Below are positions 51,439 to 62,082 of a stretch of 64,000 nucleotides of DNA, in pieces. The translations under genes were made by a program, and so were the position numbers. Positions within the stretch are counted from its first letter, which is position 1. Every line of letters starts with the position of its first letter. The notes beneath the pieces were generated by a model, which saw only the letters and a list, made by a program, of their open reading frames with translations, made no database searches and was not told the DNA's origin. The stretch is from Aeropyrum camini SY1 = JCM 12091. Its GTDB lineage: Archaea; Thermoproteota; Thermoprotei_A; Sulfolobales; Acidilobaceae. The stretch covers positions 682,001-746,000 of the forward strand of contig NC_022521.1 of assembly GCF_000591035.1 (NCBI RefSeq), written 5' to 3'.

Positions 51439-51888
51439 TCACCCCCATAGGATCTCCCTAATGCTGAGGGCGTGATGGTCAGGAGCTAGTGATAAGGCTG
51501 CAAGCCGCCTGACTTCCCGGTTCAGTAGCTTCTCGCCTCCTTCCGCCTCAACACACCTAAGATATCGGAATAACTTCTCGAGGTTAGCTGCCATGTACCT
51601 TAGTCTTTTTAACGCCTCTTCCACTCTTTCCCCTTCTCCCTTGTTGTAGAGAGACTCGAGATCCTTGTAGACCTTGACAGCAAGTCTAGCTAACAACGCT
51701 AGCTGTTCCTCGTAGGAAGAGGGCCTAGACGCTAGAGTGTCGGTTATATCGTATGCCTCCTCCGCTAAGATAACTATCCTAGCAGTCCTCGCAAGATCTT
51801 CTACAGGATCCCGCTGTCCATCCGCCCTCTCCATACATTTTTCTAGAACCCCAATGCTGCTTACGCTCTGATAGCTGGGGGAAGCCAA
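51439..51888 (-). CDS. csa5: Csa5 (Cas11a) small subunit
   Basis: The chosen start, TTG 51888 (ASPSYQSVSSIGVL), has GGAGG 10 nt upstream and gives 149 residues, the usual Csa5 size; the open frame to 51990 adds improbable sequence containing the promoter. The protein is mainly alpha-helical (VEDLARTARIVILAEEAYDI, VEEALKRLRYMAANLEKLFR). Position upstream of cas7 fits Csa5. It supports R-loop formation by Cascade. Confidence 0.85.
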   Translation of the reverse strand: MASPSYQSVSSIGVLEKCMERADGQRDPVEDLARTARIVILAEEAYDITDTLASRPSSYEEQLALLARLAVKVYKDLESLYNKGEGERVEEALKRLRYMAANLEKLFRYLRCVEAEGGEKLLNREVRRLAALSLAPDHHALSIREILWG

Positions 51889-51926
51889 AACATGCCAGCC
51901 TCCAGTATAAATAATGCTGATTAATA

Positions 51927-51950
51927 CCATATAAACCCTTAATGTGTCAC
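51927..51950 (-). promoter_or_regulatory. Promoter of the interference operon with 12-bp upstream motif
   Basis: On the minus strand, GTGACACATTAA (51950-51939) directly precedes GGGTTTATATGG (TATA, 51938-51927). Initiation about 25 bp on would leave a short leader with GGAGG before TTG 51888. The same 12-mer with a TTTATA beside it occurs at 55421-55444, next to csa1 and the CRISPR leader. Confidence 0.65.
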
Positions 51951-52001
51951 TAATACTATTCCATGTTTTATGGGAAAAAGAATTTTTCACTTGCTTTAGT
52001 G

Positions 52002-52724
52002 TTATATGCCTACTAACATGTAGCCTAAATCGGTGAGACTATAGAGCTTCCCTCTCCCCCTCACTTCTGAAGATATTAACTTCTTCGACTCAAGCTTTCG
52101 GAGAAGCCTGTCAGCAAGAGTTCTAGAGACCTGTAAGGATCTTGCAATAGACTTTACTCTAGCCCTCCCTAGGCCTACCAAGGTTTCCACTACCAAGAGT
52201 TCCTTATAATCTATTGTAGCGAGGGGCGGCACGCTCTCGAGTTGTAAGGGCTGCAGCATCTCAGGACGTATGTTAAGGTCTATACCCTCGGCCTCGGACT
52301 CTAAATCAACTCTTAGCATCTCCACTTTGATTCCGCGGAACACACCCACTGTTTGGAGCGCCATTGCTGTTAGAAGGGCAGAGACTACTAGCCATCTTAA
52401 CCCTCCAGAGGCTAGAATGTATGCTCTGGCAGGCGCAGCCTCCTCGACAACCCTCCTCATCTTGGCAACTCCTCTGGGTATACCATTAGAGGGGTCTAGC
52501 CATACGTCTCTCGTTTCCACATGAAGATCTCCATAAGCGTCTATAATCATGTTCTTAAGCTTCTCTACGGCGTCAGCTGCCTCCCTTGTTCTGGGCTCGC
52601 TGTTAACTATTATTACGAGGCTCCCAGGCTCCAGGCCGATAGATGCTACTGCACGCCAGGGCCTGGAGTAGTTAAACCCCATTGTTGTCAGTATAACCTT
52701 TCTGAGCCTCTCCCTGCTACCCAA
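52002..52724 (-). CDS. csa3: Csa3, CARF-wHTH transcription regulator
   Basis: The 240-residue protein has a Rossmann-like CARF half (KVILTTMGFNYSRPWRAVAS, VIIVNSEPRTREAADAV, ARAYILASGGLRWLVVSALL) and a C-terminal winged helix (KSIARSLQVSRTLADRLLRK followed by LESKKLISSEVRGRGKLYSL). Csa3 proteins regulate adaptation and interference operons in Sulfolobus-type type I-A systems and may sense cyclic oligoadenylates. TTG 52724 is chosen for GGAGGG upstream. It overlaps the cas4 end. Confidence 0.9.
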   Translation of the reverse strand: MGSRERLRKVILTTMGFNYSRPWRAVASIGLEPGSLVIIVNSEPRTREAADAVEKLKNMIIDAYGDLHVETRDVWLDPSNGIPRGVAKMRRVVEEAAPARAYILASGGLRWLVVSALLTAMALQTVGVFRGIKVEMLRVDLESEAEGIDLNIRPEMLQPLQLESVPPLATIDYKELLVVETLVGLGRARVKSIARSLQVSRTLADRLLRKLESKKLISSEVRGRGKLYSLTDLGYMLVGI

Positions 52725-53308
52725 GGCTGGCACACCCTCCTGAACCTGCATGCCACACACTTTCTACCTGGCTTGGGAGGAGGTTCTAGACCATCGTCCA
52801 GGATTTTGTTCATATCGTCAGCTAGCCTGATCACATCACGTCTCAGGCTAGGGGACATTCTAACAACGTAAGTTTTAGAATCCTCCAGCGAAACGATAGC
52901 TAGGTAGTCAACAGAATATCCTCTGGTCTCTTCGAGGGCTAGCGCATAGGCAGCGGCCTGAAAGATAACATGACGGTCCCTAGTGTGAAGCCATCTATTA
53001 GACCTTACACTTAGCTTAGCCTCGACGACTACAATGCCCAGCCTCCCTTCGACAACTACCCCGTCTGCAACACCCTGTAGCCCTAGACGCTTGCTTCTCA
53101 AGGGTACAGCCCATTCTTCCTTCACAATTCTGAAGCCAGAGGTTCTTAGGATCTCCCTAACATGGTCCACGCTATAAATCTCGCGAGAGAGATTCATAGG
53201 CTCTGTGGGCCTATATGAAGGCCTAAGAACCTCCATATAGTAGGCGACACGCGGACAGTACGCGTACTCCTTCAGCATAGACACCGGCCTCAAACTACAC
53301 CACCACAA
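52688..53308 (-). CDS. cas4: Cas4 nuclease
   Basis: The 206-residue protein has LKEYAYCPRVAYYMEVLR (first Cys), LQGVADGVVVEGRLGIVVVE with AKLS (D-ExK nuclease site), IFQAAAYALALEE (QxxxY) and KCVACRFRRVCQPW (three C-terminal Cys), the complete Cas4 4Fe-4S nuclease pattern. It trims prespacers and defines PAM end during adaptation. Start may be 53308 or slightly inside. It overlaps cas2 by 14 bp. Confidence 0.93.
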   Translation of the reverse strand: MWWCSLRPVSMLKEYAYCPRVAYYMEVLRPSYRPTEPMNLSREIYSVDHVREILRTSGFRIVKEEWAVPLRSKRLGLQGVADGVVVEGRLGIVVVEAKLSVRSNRWLHTRDRHVIFQAAAYALALEETRGYSVDYLAIVSLEDSKTYVVRMSPSLRRDVIRLADDMNKILDDGLEPPPKPGRKCVACRFRRVCQPWVAGRGSERLY

Positions 53309-53573
53309 CTCTCTTCACATCCTCAAGACTACCCCCAAGACCGTAGGCATCCCTAACACTGTCGCCTGGAATAACCATCACCATGATCTTGTCTTTCCTA
53401 CTGTCCGCTAGCCTCTGGAGAGCTCGGTACGCCTCCTTGGCAAGGCTCCGTCCTCCCTTCGCGATGTACACGCTCTTCTGTACCCTAGCGAATCCCATCT
53501 GCAGAAGTTTCTGTGAGGCCTTGAGGCGTTTAGAATCATTGCTTATATCGTAGGCTATTAAAACGTACACCAA
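53295..53573 (-). CDS. cas2: Cas2
   Basis: The 92-residue protein starts VYVLIAYDISNDSKRLKASQ (Asp9 in YDISND), with LLQMGFARVQKSVYIAKGG and a C-terminal MVMVIPGDSVRDAYGL strand, typical Cas2. It forms the integrase complex with Cas1. Start TTG 53573 or GTG 53570; it begins 4 bp after the cas1 stop. Confidence 0.95.
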   Translation of the reverse strand: MVYVLIAYDISNDSKRLKASQKLLQMGFARVQKSVYIAKGGRSLAKEAYRALQRLADSRKDKIMVMVIPGDSVRDAYGLGGSLEDVKRVVVV

Positions 53574-53576
53574 GGA

Positions 53577-54557
53577 TCACAGCCCCACCCTGACAGCTGA
53601 GAACCCTCCGGAGCCTCGGAAAGCCTCTGCAAGCCGTCGCGCTTGAATCATTATGGCGTCTTCGAGCCTAATTCTTCTACCTAACCCTCTGACAGCAGCT
53701 TTCATGGAAAGCGAGCTGGCAACCGCCTTAGCAACCTCTTTTCTGGACTTATAGTCTAGCCTTCCAGCTTCTAGCTTGAGATATATTCTCCCAGCCTTCA
53801 GAGCAAGAATCCTGTCGACAATGGGTGCTCGGAAGGGTTCTATAGCGTCCAGAGTTAGGCTAGGCTTCCCACTCTTCTCGGTGTGGAAGACGCCAAGGTA
53901 TGGATCGAGGCCGACGAGAAGGAGGCTCTTCTCGACAATGCTATAGAGTATGCCGTAGCCGTAGTTGAGGGCGGCGTTGAAGGGGTCAAGGGCTCCTCGG
54001 TCACGGCCGCTGAACCCGAGTCTTTCAGGAAGTATCTCTGCTATGCACTGCCAGTATCTCCTCGACGTTCTCGCCTCAATTGATAGGAGCCTATCCCTAA
54101 ACCCGGGCCCATCCTCGTCTGCTATGCGCAATGGCTCTCCAGATAGTAGCTCAACCTCGTATCCGGCCTCTCTCAGTCTCTCATCTGCTCTCTGTCTTGC
54201 AATATACTTTAGGGTCTGGCCCTGGTTGTAGATCTTCGCCGATACCAGCTCTGCTGCTATGAGTCTTCTAAGCCTCTCGCTGGCTGAAAACTGTCCAATC
54301 CTAGTTGCCACGGTCTTATTAATAATGGGTGGGTAGAGCCTCGCCACGGGGCTGCCATCCCAGTCTAGAAAGACGAGGTCTATACCCATTTTTGCAGCCG
54401 CTCGTACGGCCGCGCTAGAGATAGAGACTCTGCTACTGGATATTATTACACGTTCCACGCTACTCTCTACTACAACCTTTTTTCCTGTTTTAGTCTCCAC
54501 AACCAAAGCACCTCTAGCAACCCTTATCCTTGAACCGGGCTCTGCAACCACCATCAT
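53577..54557 (-). CDS. cas1: Cas1 integrase
   Basis: The 326-residue protein (ATG 54557, overlapping the csa1 stop) has the N-terminal beta domain (VERVIISSSRVSISSAAVRA, MGIDLVFLDWDGSPVARL) and the helical catalytic domain: NYGYGILYSIVEKSLLLVGL (Glu), LGVFHTEKSGKPSLTLDAIE (His and acidic residues) and PFRAPIVDRILAL. It integrates new spacers at the leader end. Normal length. Confidence 0.96.
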   Translation of the reverse strand: MMVVAEPGSRIRVARGALVVETKTGKKVVVESSVERVIISSSRVSISSAAVRAAAKMGIDLVFLDWDGSPVARLYPPIINKTVATRIGQFSASERLRRLIAAELVSAKIYNQGQTLKYIARQRADERLREAGYEVELLSGEPLRIADEDGPGFRDRLLSIEARTSRRYWQCIAEILPERLGFSGRDRGALDPFNAALNYGYGILYSIVEKSLLLVGLDPYLGVFHTEKSGKPSLTLDAIEPFRAPIVDRILALKAGRIYLKLEAGRLDYKSRKEVAKAVASSLSMKAAVRGLGRRIRLEDAIMIQARRLAEAFRGSGGFSAVRVGL

Positions 54558-55375
54558 CAAACTCCGCACACCTCCCGGAAGGCACATCCTGCAGGGCATG
54601 CCTCGGGCAATCCCGGATAGCTCCTATACTCTATAATTCTCGCTACTGCATCACGCCTCTCAAGGAACCTTGTCCTGAGGTGATCGTCGACCCTCACTAG
54701 CCTCCAAACAATCTTCAACTCATCGTTAACCCTAAGGCCGGCAACAACTCCGTAGTCAACGGGGTTTCCAGTCCATGCCTCGACAGCAAGAGCATATCCA
54801 GCTATAGCTAGCTCCTTCCTTGCAATCCACCTATCACCATGTCCAGCGAGCACTAGGTCGACCGGCATGATGCCAACAAGTAGATCCGGCCTGACATAGT
54901 CGCTGAGCCCCACAGGGCCTCCTGGCACGTTAGGCTCGACAGCAACAGGAATTCCGTCAACCCTTGCAGCCGCCGAAAACTCCACGGCCTTCTCAAAAAC
55001 AGCATTCATAACGCGGATCTCGTTGCCTCGTGCTCCAACCCTTTTCAACAAGTAATTAAACATCCTGTAAGCATCGCCTACTCTGTGAGCCTTGAAGGGG
55101 AGCAGGAAAGCCTCGTGTACTAGAGCCCCCAGCCTGAGAAGCCCCCCATTAACCCTCGTATTTAGGACTCTCCTCAGATAAGTATCCCTACCAACGGGGC
55201 AAACCCCTGTAACATCGCTGAGTGTAGGCCTAGCCGCGTACCTAGGACCTACGACATCCCATTTCCATCCCCTTAACTCGGCGTATACTCCATCGCCAGC
55301 AGAGGATCTTATCAAGTCCCACAAGCCTCGGGGGAACAAACACAACACCACTAAGTTATTAAACAAGCGGTACAT
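54557..55375 (-). CDS. csa1: Csa1 (Cas4-like adaptation protein)
   Basis: The 272-residue protein has CPVGRDTYLRRVLNTRVNGG (first Cys), LGALVHEAFLLPFKAHRV, a nuclease-like core with DYVRPDLLVGIMPVDLVLAG, ELAIAGYALAVEAWTGNPVD, and a C-terminal ACPAGCAFREVCGV Cys cluster. This is Csa1, a Cas4 relative of type I-A adaptation operons, first in the operon csa1-cas1-cas2-cas4. It starts 337 bp from the array, divergent across the leader. Confidence 0.9.
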   Translation of the reverse strand: MYRLFNNLVVLCLFPRGLWDLIRSSAGDGVYAELRGWKWDVVGPRYAARPTLSDVTGVCPVGRDTYLRRVLNTRVNGGLLRLGALVHEAFLLPFKAHRVGDAYRMFNYLLKRVGARGNEIRVMNAVFEKAVEFSAAARVDGIPVAVEPNVPGGPVGLSDYVRPDLLVGIMPVDLVLAGHGDRWIARKELAIAGYALAVEAWTGNPVDYGVVAGLRVNDELKIVWRLVRVDDHLRTRFLERRDAVARIIEYRSYPGLPEACPAGCAFREVCGV

Positions 55376-55713
55376 CTATTTATCAGAACAATGTATCTAT
55401 TGTTACATAAGATGTGAAAAGTGACACATTAACCATTTATAAGCTAAAATACGAATAGCAAGACCTTGATAATAAACTCAAAACTATCAATCTAAACAGA
55501 TAGAAAATGTACCCATCTAAAATAGTCCATCAAAAATAAGGACACGCATAATAACGTTTAATGCGAGCAAACTACAAATAAATATAAATGACCGGAAGCC
55601 TCTCTGAAGAAGAACAAAGCCAAATTGTGGGTGAAATATTCTGAATTATGAGAAAAGAAAAGCTTATATAAGAATACAACACTAAATAAACTGAACAATG
55701 AAAAGATTAAACG
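55376..55713. promoter_or_regulatory. CRISPR leader and divergent cas adaptation promoter
   Basis: An A+T-rich spacer of 338 bp between csa1 (minus) and the first repeat (plus). CTTATATAAG at 55663-55672 lies about 45 bp before the first repeat and would start the pre-crRNA near 55697. GTGACACATTAA at 55421-55432 is followed by CCATTTATAAGC at 55433-55444; this TATA can read toward the leader or, as GCTTATAAATGG, toward csa1. A palindrome AACAAT-N6-ATTGTT is at 55387-55404, within the csa1 leader. Confidence 0.7.
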
Positions 55714-57902
55714 GCATATCCCTAAAGGGAATAGAAAGTTCAGGGATAGGCTTGGCAAGAAGCTTTTCCTAGTGCAACAGCGCATATCCCTAAAGGGAAT
55801 AGAAAGAATGAGAAGATGAGTTGGGCACATGCCAAAGACGCCTACGGCATATCCCTAAAGGGAATAGAAAGCTAGCCAGGGTGGCCAGGGAAACGCTTGA
55901 GGAGAAGGTTGCATATCCCTAAAGGGAATAGAAAGATAGCCCCGATGAACCGGGGTAAAACCTCCTGGATGGAGGCCGCATATCCCTAAAGGGAATAGAA
56001 AGAACACTCTTTTCCTTAATAATGAATTCTTGATCTTGGCCCGCATATCCCTAAAGGGAATAGAAAGCAGTCTAAGGGTGGGTACACCTGTGTACAGAAC
56101 GAGAGGGCATATCCCTAAAGGGAATAGAAAGCTAACTCTCTTTCCAGCCGTCGGTTCAGGCGGATCTTGACAATACCTAAAGGGAATAGAAAGCTAACTC
56201 TCTATTACTGATAAGAAACGGTAAGACGCTGCATATCCCTAAAGGGAATAGAAAGTTAAACTCTCAAGCCTGTTATATTTATCAGCAATACTAGCTGAGC
56301 ATATCCCTAAAGGGAATAGAAAGTACGTGAGGCAGTATCTGGATGGTGACTGGGGGTGGCTGGCATATCCCTAAAGGGAATAGAAAGCTCAGCCTCCCCA
56401 GCAGCTCCATCGCCACATGCCTCGCCGCATATCCCTAAAGGGAATAGAAAGTACGCCATGAGCCCGAGGTACAGCGAGCTGGTGGGCAGGCGCATATCCC
56501 TAAAGGGAATAGAAAGCGCCTTGTCGTCGGGGAACCCCATGTACTTCAGCTCCGCGTGCATATCCCTAAAGGGAATAGAAAGCCTCCCAGCCCGGACTTT
56601 ACAGAGTCTTCTATAAACTTCTCGAGCATATCCCTAAAGGGAATAGAAAGTTACGTTTATTTTTGTTGCACCCACGGGCCTCGACTGATACGTAGGCATA
56701 TCCCTAAAGGGAATAGAAAGAGGAACCTGGCTACCAGGCTTGCTAGTCTCCTGGCGTCCGCATATCCCTAAAGGGAATAGAAAGTGCTTCGAGGCTGGGA
56801 AGATGGCGTGCTAGGTGAGTTAGCACGCATATCCCTAAAGGGAATAGAAAGAGCCCCCTGGCTCCATGGAAGCGTATAGCAAGAATAGTACCGGGCATAT
56901 CCCTAAAGGGAATAGAAAGAGCCCCTACCTCGCCGCGGGCGAACCCGACCCCAGATGGCATATCCCTAAAGGGAATAGAAAGATGGTGATGTAGGCCTCC
57001 AGGACGGCCATACTGTGTAGTGGCATATCCCTAAAGGGAATAGAAAGAGGCAGGCGGGGGCTGAGGGTGTGGGTGAGAGGATAGGCAGGGCGCATATCCC
57101 TAAAGGGAATAGAAAGGCAACCTCGTCAGGCTTCCACACGTTGCTAGCCACGGCCGCATATCCCTAAAGGGAATAGAAAGTCGCAACCTCCTATCTGGCC
57201 GTTGTCACCGTTGCGGGCATATCCCTAAAGGGAATAGAAAGGGCAAATACTGTGTAAGGTCTACGGATGCCGTCTGCGCGGTTGTGCATATCCCTAAAGG
57301 GAATAGAAAGCTGCATGAGCCCGTGTGTGCTGCTGGGCGGTATGCCCAGCGGCATATCCCTAAAGGGAATAGAAAGGGCCTGGGACCGCGGCTCTCGCCT
57401 GGCTAGCCCTCTACAGGAGCATATCCCTAAAGGGAATAGAAAGGCTATAGTAGCGTAGGTGCCAGAGTTGTTGAGATCATATTGGCATATCCCTAAAGGG
57501 AATAGAAAGATGATACTCGAGGAGTATGGGGGGTGATGGGTTGTGGAGCGCATATCCCTAAAGGGAATAGAAAGTTCATAACAGCGTTTAGCCAGGTCAC
57601 TCACACCTATCCACCCCAGCATATCCCTAAAGGGAATAGAAAGATGCCACAGCTCAGCCTCTATCTCACTGCTAGCCAAGCTGCATATCCCTAAAGGGAA
57701 TAGAAAGGGCGGGCGTGGACTACAGGCTCCAGCCGTACCTGCCAAGCATATCCCTAAAGGGAATAGAAAGAGGCGGTGGTAGCGGGGGCTCGGGCGGCAG
57801 CGGCGGTGGCTGCATATCCCTAAAGGGAATAGAAAGCAGGTTGCGTTGACCGGTCTTCACGAGTTCACCCACTATCTGCGTATCCCTAAAGGGAATAGAA
57901 GG
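55714..57902 (+). CRISPR. CRISPR array, 34 repeats and 33 spacers
   Basis: The 25-bp repeat begins GCATATCCCTAAAGGG and ends AATAGAAAG. I count 34 copies; first 55714-55738, last 57878-57902. Spacers range from 36 to 45 bp. The core TCCC-TAAA-GGGA is palindromic, and the repeat end ATAGAAAG matches the crenarchaeal 5' handle type, so transcription is on the plus strand from the leader at left. The last repeat carries two changes (GCG at its start, AGG at its end), as expected for the trailer end. Repeat 8 (56169-56193) is strongly degenerate at its first seven bases. The array adjoins the type I-A cas genes. Confidence 0.98.
56169..56193 (+). repeat. Degenerate internal CRISPR repeat
   Basis: The eighth repeat reads GACAATACCTAAAGGG before a normal AATAGAAAG end, so four of the first seven bases differ. 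The spacers before and after it start with the same ten bases, CTAACTCTCT. A repeat altered only at its 5' part in mid-array suggests recombination rather than trailer decay. Confidence 0.85.
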
Positions 57903-60633: not shown

Positions 60634-62082
60634 TTGTCCTTGGCGCGTTCACTAGTTGTGGCTCCTTGGGGGGATTTTAGGGAGTGGAGTGAAGTAGAGT
60701 ATAGACTAGACGATGTATCGACCAAGTCTAGGAGCACCCTTCGGGCAGTGCTAAAGTATGAGAGGGGTTCGGGTGAGGCTTATCCTGTAGTGCTTATACC
60801 CGAAACTCTGGTTTCCGGAGATGTTCTAGGTAGGTGTAGGGATCCCGAGTGTTATAGAAAGGAGGTCTACGATGCTGTTGGGAAGGATGCGAGCATGTTT
60901 CTCGAGGAAATGGGTGTTGGGGAGAGTAGAGTTTGCGTAATGCCTAATATAGGAGACTATAGCATGGCCAGGTGGGAGATCCGTGGCGTCGACTTGAACA
61001 TAGTCTCGTACTACTCCTCAATGGCCATGCTCTGTATGCTGGGGGTGGGTTTGGAGAAGAGTGTTGACAGGGTCGTGGTGGACCTAAGCCATGGCATAAA
61101 CTTTATGGTGAAGGCAGCCTACCGTGCCGCCATGACGTCCTCCAGGCTTTTGAGCGCTATAATGGGTAGGGAGGTGGAGATAGTGGTGTATAACAGTGAG
61201 CCCTATAGGAGGGGGGTTGAGACGCTGGAGATACATAAAGTAGATGATGAGGTTGTGACGCCAGGAAGAGCCGCCTCAAGGCTAGTTTACTCGTATTATC
61301 AGGGGGTGCACAGGCTGAATTCTAGTGTTGATGTGGTTAAGGCTGTGAGGATAGACAGAAGCCATAGTATGGGGCGTGAGGCTAAGAAGAGGCTGAACAG
61401 CGACAGTCACATTAAGGCGGTAAACAAGTTGTTGAAGATCCACGGTATGCAGGCGGCGGCGAGCGTGTATTTCAGCCTGCCACTAGCCGCCCTCCAGGTT
61501 GGAGCCAACGCTCTGAGGGACGTGGGAAGCGTTGAAGAGGCGGTTAGCCAGCTTAGAGGCACCATAACTGCGCTGCAGGAGGCGATGCCCCTCGTGGATA
61601 TCTCGCACGGGAGGGTTGTTAGGCACTATGGGGGTGTTGATTACGATATTGTTAAGAGCGCCCTGGCGGGGACTGCTTTGACGGTTTACACCATGAGACT
61701 CTATAGGGACTTCGAAGGTAACGGTGTATACTTTAGCGGCGGAGTGGTGGAGGCGGAGCTAGATACCCTAGAGAAGGTTGTAGAGAGGCTGCCCGGCCCC
61801 CTACAGTTTGTTAGTATGAATGAGATACACAGGGAGAAGTCTACAGAGCGCGAAGAAAGCGGCGAGGGCCCGGCTAAATACCTATCTGAATCTTGTATTG
61901 GGCATAACGTTCAGGATAGGAACTTCATAGCCCACGCTGGGCTAGAGAGGAACCTAGCATGCAGGAGAGGAAGCAGGGTTAGGTATCATGAAAGCGCCGC
62001 AAACGGGGGAGAACTCTACAGGGTGTTGGAGGAAAGTCTCAGAAAGACGATGAGGTTTCTATTCGGAGGAGACCAGGGCTAG
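60634..62082 (+). CDS. csx1: Csx1-type CARF-HEPN ribonuclease
   Basis: The 482-residue protein begins with a Rossmann-like CARF domain (SLVVAPWGDFREWSEVEYRL, RVCVMPNIGDYSM, DRVVVDLSHGINFMVKAAYR) and ends with a HEPN domain carrying DRNFIAHAGLE, the R-x4-H catalytic motif at Arg429-His434. Csx1 proteins are RNases switched on by cyclic oligoadenylates made by type III Cas10. No Cas10 or other type III gene is in the window, so activation must come from elsewhere or by another route. Start TTG 60634 is uncertain (TTG 60640 possible). A TATA element lies near 60560. Confidence 0.9.
   Translation: MSLARSLVVAPWGDFREWSEVEYRLDDVSTKSRSTLRAVLKYERGSGEAYPVVLIPETLVSGDVLGRCRDPECYRKEVYDAVGKDASMFLEEMGVGESRVCVMPNIGDYSMARWEIRGVDLNIVSYYSSMAMLCMLGVGLEKSVDRVVVDLSHGINFMVKAAYRAAMTSSRLLSAIMGREVEIVVYNSEPYRRGVETLEIHKVDDEVVTPGRAASRLVYSYYQGVHRLNSSVDVVKAVRIDRSHSMGREAKKRLNSDSHIKAVNKLLKIHGMQAAASVYFSLPLAALQVGANALRDVGSVEEAVSQLRGTITALQEAMPLVDISHGRVVRHYGGVDYDIVKSALAGTALTVYTMRLYRDFEGNGVYFSGGVVEAELDTLEKVVERLPGPLQFVSMNEIHREKSTEREESGEGPAKYLSESCIGHNVQDRNFIAHAGLERNLACRRGSRVRYHESAANGGELYRVLEESLRKTMRFLFGGDQG

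Follow-up and report, generated by a model that had tools for sequence, protein, structure and literature searches.

A short promoter word, GTGACACATTAA, lies beside a TATA box at both ends of the adaptation operon of this type I-A CRISPR locus, and we hold with roughly even confidence that it is the operator of the locus-encoded Csa3, through which this protein would autoregulate the adaptation operon and control the Cascade operon. The initial annotation had described a 12-nt motif followed by a TATA box on both strands of the 64,000-nt stretch analysed (hereafter the window), and both copies were found as described, on the minus strand at 51950-51927 (copy 1, in full GTGACACATTAAGGGTTTATATGG) and on the plus strand at 55421-55444 (copy 2, in full GTGACACATTAACCATTTATAAGC). 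The arrangement is the same at the two sites, with GTGACACATTAA, three bases and then the TATA box; exact identity covers 13 nt (AGTGACACATTAA), after which come three differing bases and TTTATA. The archaeal BRE has the consensus RNWAAW, and ATTAA, the 3' part of the word, occupies the position expected for this element. Thus, only AGTGACAC requires a special binder, and it is probably the regulator-specific part of the word. The inverted repeat around copy 2 (Table 1) is a possible dimer site, weak alone with its 5+5 bp, and there is no one symmetrical operator that fits both sites, copy 1 reading TTAGTG-ACA-CATTAA and copy 2 ATGTG-N8-CACAT.

Table 1. Features of the CRISPR locus discussed in the text, in window coordinates.
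Feature	Position	Strand	Description
csa5/cas11a	51439..51888	-	First Cascade gene; PADLOC Cas11a E 6.9e-47
Copy 1, GTGACACATTAA-GGG-TTTATATGG	51927..51950	-	Motif and TATA box of csa5/cas11a (Cascade) operon
TCCATGTTTTATGGGA	51960..51975		Upstream of copy 1; one mismatch from CAPPa (TCCCN8GGGA)
csa3	52002..52760	-	CARF-wHTH, candidate binder; TIGR01884 E 1.1e-69, Csa3_N E 5e-8
csa1 (cas4-like)	54557..55351	-	First gene of adaptation operon; Pfam Csa1 E 6e-82
GATAAATAG	55376..55384	-	27-29 bp before csa1 GTG start, poor BRE; kept in sister genome
Inverted repeat ATGTG-N8-CACAT	55412..55429		Holds core of copy 2; kept in sister genome
Copy 2, GTGACACATTAA-CCA-TTTATAAGC	55421..55444	+	Motif and TATA-like box between csa1 and CRISPR leader
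GAAAAGCTTATATAAG	55657..55672	+	Leader-proximal BRE/TATA; TATA (55663-55672) kept in sister genome
CRISPR array	55714..57836	+	25-nt repeat GCATATCCCTAAAGGGAATAGAAAG; only array of that repeat in genome

Both operons are on the minus strand, in tandem. The genes csa1, cas1, cas2, cas4 and csa3 overlap or nearly touch, so that an operon read from the csa1 promoter almost certainly ends with csa3, and it is this operon that the two copies of the word bracket. The Cascade operon (csa5/cas11a, cas7, cas5, cas3, cas3'', cas8a, cas6), which begins 114 bp beyond the stop codon of csa3, has its own promoter, with a TATA at 51935-51928, a predicted start near 51907, GGAGG at 51903-51899 and a TTG start at 51888; its first gene was missed by the Pfam and NCBIfam profiles. 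On the other side, csa1 probably starts at GTG 55348 or 55351 and not at ATG 55375; its homologues align from residue 12-13, and the sister genome retains only the GTG at 55348. GATAAATAG is the likely TATA of csa1, with a leaderless GTG start, and copy 2 with its surrounding inverted repeat (55412-55429) lies at about -64 to -81 of this gene.

Copy 2 is also about 290 bp upstream of the first repeat, and its TATA-like box is followed by 270 bp of leader. That it drives the array, as had been suggested, is possible but not the simplest reading, since a conserved BRE/TATA belonging to the leader itself is present at 55657-55672. This element lies 42 bp ahead of the first repeat (55714), has a predicted start near 55694, and is likely the main array promoter, stronger than the box of copy 2. 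Given the conserved TATA that the array possesses at 55663-55672, copy 2 is not its obvious main promoter; it may instead serve csa1 from upstream, be a leader-distal site or act as a secondary promoter of the leader. A gene lying downstream of it was rejected, since stops are numerous in all three frames. Firing of copy 2 toward csa1 through a reverse-read TATA is disfavoured, in that there is no A-rich BRE and GATAAATAG suits the leaderless GTG start.

The initial annotation had noted no third copy in the window, and none appeared there with one mismatch allowed. The genome-wide motif search that it proposed, performed as a pattern search of the single 1,595,994-base contig, found two exact copies, both in the CRISPR locus, where composition (GC of 56.7% assumed) predicts about 0.1 exact 12-mer copies per genome. 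Two genomic matches with one mismatch, one in a radical-SAM-like coding sequence and the other in a stretch with no ORF of at least 70 aa, were dropped, as neither has a TATA at the motif spacing. When the composite TGACACATTAA-N4-TTATA was searched with up to 3 mismatches, two exact matches were found in this genome and two in the sister genome, the next best matches having 3 and 2 mismatches, respectively.

About half of the shared bases are themselves expected core-promoter elements, with ATTAA as BRE and TTTATA as TATA, and the two sites could owe their agreement in AGTGACAC to chance; in a narrower test, where the two intergenic regions alone were shuffled, a shared word of at least 13 nt arose in 14 of 4000 cases (and a 24-mer with at least 20 identities in 4 of 2000). 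We nevertheless judge such a coincidence improbable. Among 109 TTTATA/CTTATA sites of the window, the array left out, this is the sole pair sharing 9- to 12-mers at equal TATA offset, no other pair having even a 9-mer in common at such spacing; dinucleotide shuffles yielded no 11-mer pair and no 12-mer pair at equal offset (0/150 each), and the genome holds no further copies. As the pair was spotted before testing, these chance statistics are good, not overwhelming, evidence.

Conservation was followed in the sister genome (G001; 1,669,696 bases), where the csa5 promoter carries GTGACACATTAA, all of copy 1 with its TATA box being identical, and the csa1/leader site reads ATGACACATTAA, within a copy 2 stretch that is ATGACACATTAACCACTTATAAGC. 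The spacing between the two sites is 3482 bp in both genomes, and the comparison leaves TGACACATTAACCA fixed and the first G variable. Between the genomes, the 113-base csa3-csa5 spacer has one difference and the leader region differs at 14%, four-fold sites of csa5 and csa3 differ at only 3-6% (cas7 was left out owing to an alignment artefact), and the cas genes around the sites are 95-98% identical. The expectation that the motif would be conserved in other Aeropyrum I-A loci is thus borne out at both sites in the sister species, but neutral divergence from this one near-identical relative is low, which makes the conservation a low-power footprint and no strong proof. The orthologous locus is absent from the other genomes of the genus, G002 and G003 holding a distant csa1 only and G004 and G005 none, and no relatives were found when genome contigs were searched with Csa3 and viral contigs with Csa1.

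In a further relative (G007), whose Csa1 is 52-53% and whose Csa3 is 35-36% identical, CTAATTGTGAAGACACAATAACCAT stands in both leaders at their distal ends, one of these leaders being far from csa1. It matches GACACATTAACCAT at 13 of 14 bases, contains a related word (GACACAATAACC) inside a perfect 6+6 inverted repeat, and is among the longest blocks common to the two leaders. With p of about 0.1 when the entire region is considered and 0.009 when only the 40 bp at the motif are, the match is only suggestive of a relationship between the leader word of G007 and that of the present locus. The word is absent from the csa5 promoter of G007 and, beyond G007 and the sister species, from the other relatives examined.

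Several observations were made on other loci. The genome carries, near 316-320 kb, a second type I-A locus (L112; 310000-328000) that has an array family of its own. It encodes two Csa3 proteins, which neighbour csa1 and csa5, respectively, as is the case in Sulfolobus. GGTAWTACC-like words stand near the csa1 start in many families of the order (L018, L020, L021, L023, L025, L026, L028, L032, L042 and others), GGTAATAC and GGTATTAC each occurring in 9 of about 29 csa1 upstream regions, with fewer than 0.5 expected for each by a rough estimate. Such words are absent from the present locus and are possibly a more general csa1 operator. The leaders of G007 and its relatives (L050, L051, L052, L053, L113) have a tandem element, two to four spaced CATYAGAACA with TTCAAYTCTT between them, and the L049 leader has instead a repeated ATCCGGACA.

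The initial annotation had proposed one regulator, plausibly Csa3, for interference, adaptation and array transcription. That a dedicated regulator links the two places is well supported, given the uniqueness of the word in the genome and its identical geometry, but array transcription is the weakest part of the proposal. A word that is found only twice in the genome, in one locus and with equal geometry, speaks for a dedicated local regulator. The best candidate for this role is Csa3, being encoded between the two sites; together with the precedents of Csa3a and Csa3b in Sulfolobus, this location led us to adopt Csa3 as the presumed binder. The protein scores 233.9 bits against TIGR01884 (cut-off 60.2), placing it in the family, and no solved structure matched it in a phmmer search.

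The word could also serve another regulator, either one of the two Csa3 proteins encoded at the second locus or a general wHTH factor akin to Lrs14/Sta1. Two more Csa3-family proteins are indeed encoded at 317.3-318.0 and 319.3-320.0 kb, but the array and promoters that the second locus has of its own nowhere contain the word with fewer than two mismatches, and more than two sites would be expected for a general factor; we thus regard another regulator as unlikely. A true Csa3 site at csa5 other than the word could be the CAPPa-like dyad at 51960-51975; one-mismatch CAPPa sites number 35 per 64 kb, which amounts to about a 6% chance of one in 113 bp. The csa1/leader region has no CAPPa within one mismatch, and its word does not belong to that motif class.

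The locus-encoded Csa3 would not be the first of its family to act in this manner. In Sulfolobus islandicus, Csa3b has similar sites on the csa5 and csa1 promoters (He et al. 2017; PMC7480081), which parallels the single Csa3-family regulator envisaged here for the first Cascade gene and csa1. There, a separate Csa3b acts as a repressor far upstream of csa1 (-168 to -128), and on the interference genes together with Cascade, whereas here there is one Csa3 and its putative site abuts the BRE/TATA. At the csa1 promoter of S. islandicus, the region from -81 to -42 is protected by Csa3a (PMC4333418), close to the position of copy 2. The CAPPa motif of Sulfolobales (TCCCN8GGGA) adjoins the BRE/TATA and is common to the acquisition promoter and the leaders (PMC8699464); the present word resembles it and Csa3a sites in lying by the BRE/TATA of an adaptation promoter and a CRISPR leader and in being nearly confined to CRISPR promoters (PMC8699464, PMC4333418), but CAPPa differs from GTGACAC and is not found at csa5. 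Csa3a of S. solfataricus showed little specificity in vitro toward its CAPPa sites (PMC8699464, PMC8844856). Csa3-family control of such promoters is already known, and what is new is the operator word, the lineage and the layout with one Csa3.

By its position at the distal leader end, the putative regulator site of copy 2 also recalls the leader-distal Csa3a motif (PMC9456107), which lies at -143 to -94 from the first repeat, whereas copy 2 is at -293 to -282. S. islandicus Csa3a binds both Cas1 and this motif, mutation of which lowers adaptation (PMC9456107). By analogy, copy 2 could be a leader-distal dock for Csa3-Cas1 in spacer integration, or act on csa1 only, with the adjoining TATA-like box silent, while copy 1 would serve the same protein separately, in transcription. 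The proximal TATA of the array would fit such a division, as would the related word of G007, leader-distal at two arrays of which one is far from csa1. Copy 2, however, retains the exact geometry of the csa5 promoter relative to a conserved TATA-like box facing the leader, and a role restricted to integration or csa1 seems to us rather improbable.

If the preferred reading is correct, AGTGACAC(ATTAA) would be a Csa3 operator abutting or overlapping the BRE at two promoters. As a product of the csa1-cas1-cas2-cas4-csa3 operon, Csa3 would bind just upstream of the csa5 TATA and set expression of the Cascade operon; it would also bind between csa1 and the leader, some 65-80 bp upstream of the csa1 start, to autoregulate the adaptation operon. 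There, at the leader-distal end, copy 2 would stand upstream of a TATA-like box that could yield a leader-spanning RNA. With regard to the sign of regulation, activation is slightly favoured, since the site is upstream of the TATA box and not over it.

Csa3 takes its name from Aeropyrum pernix ('CRISPR Apern 3'; PMC8844856). In sequence and alignment, the present protein has both motifs of the cA4 pocket, T-h-G-F-(N/D) as TMGFN and small-small-G-h-R as SGGLR, with Tyr in place of Glu in motif 1. Profiles for Cas10 (PF22335, TIGR02578, TIGR02577) and RAMP (PF03787) had no match in either Aeropyrum genome (G000, G001), and they matched in control genomes. A gene for a CARF-HEPN Csx1 ribonuclease lies near the far end of the array (window 60634-62082, plus strand). 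A cA4-type effector, Csx1, thus occurs alongside a Csa3 whose ligand motifs are intact, although the genome apparently has no maker of cA4. We tentatively suggest, as an unlikely scheme, that one operator word lets a single Csa3, its cA4 pocket intact, set interference, adaptation and its own synthesis in a genome with no detectable Cas10 or type III RAMP, its ligand not stemming from a type III complex in the same cell, or not being needed.

Binding sites of Csa3 have so far been worked out only in Sulfolobales, where specificity in vitro is disputed. With one Csa3 and a unique, short and testable word at two of its promoters, a locus of this kind would be a clean system for establishing what Csa3 recognises and, given the apparent absence of a type III Cas10, would also show whether Csa3 needs cA4.
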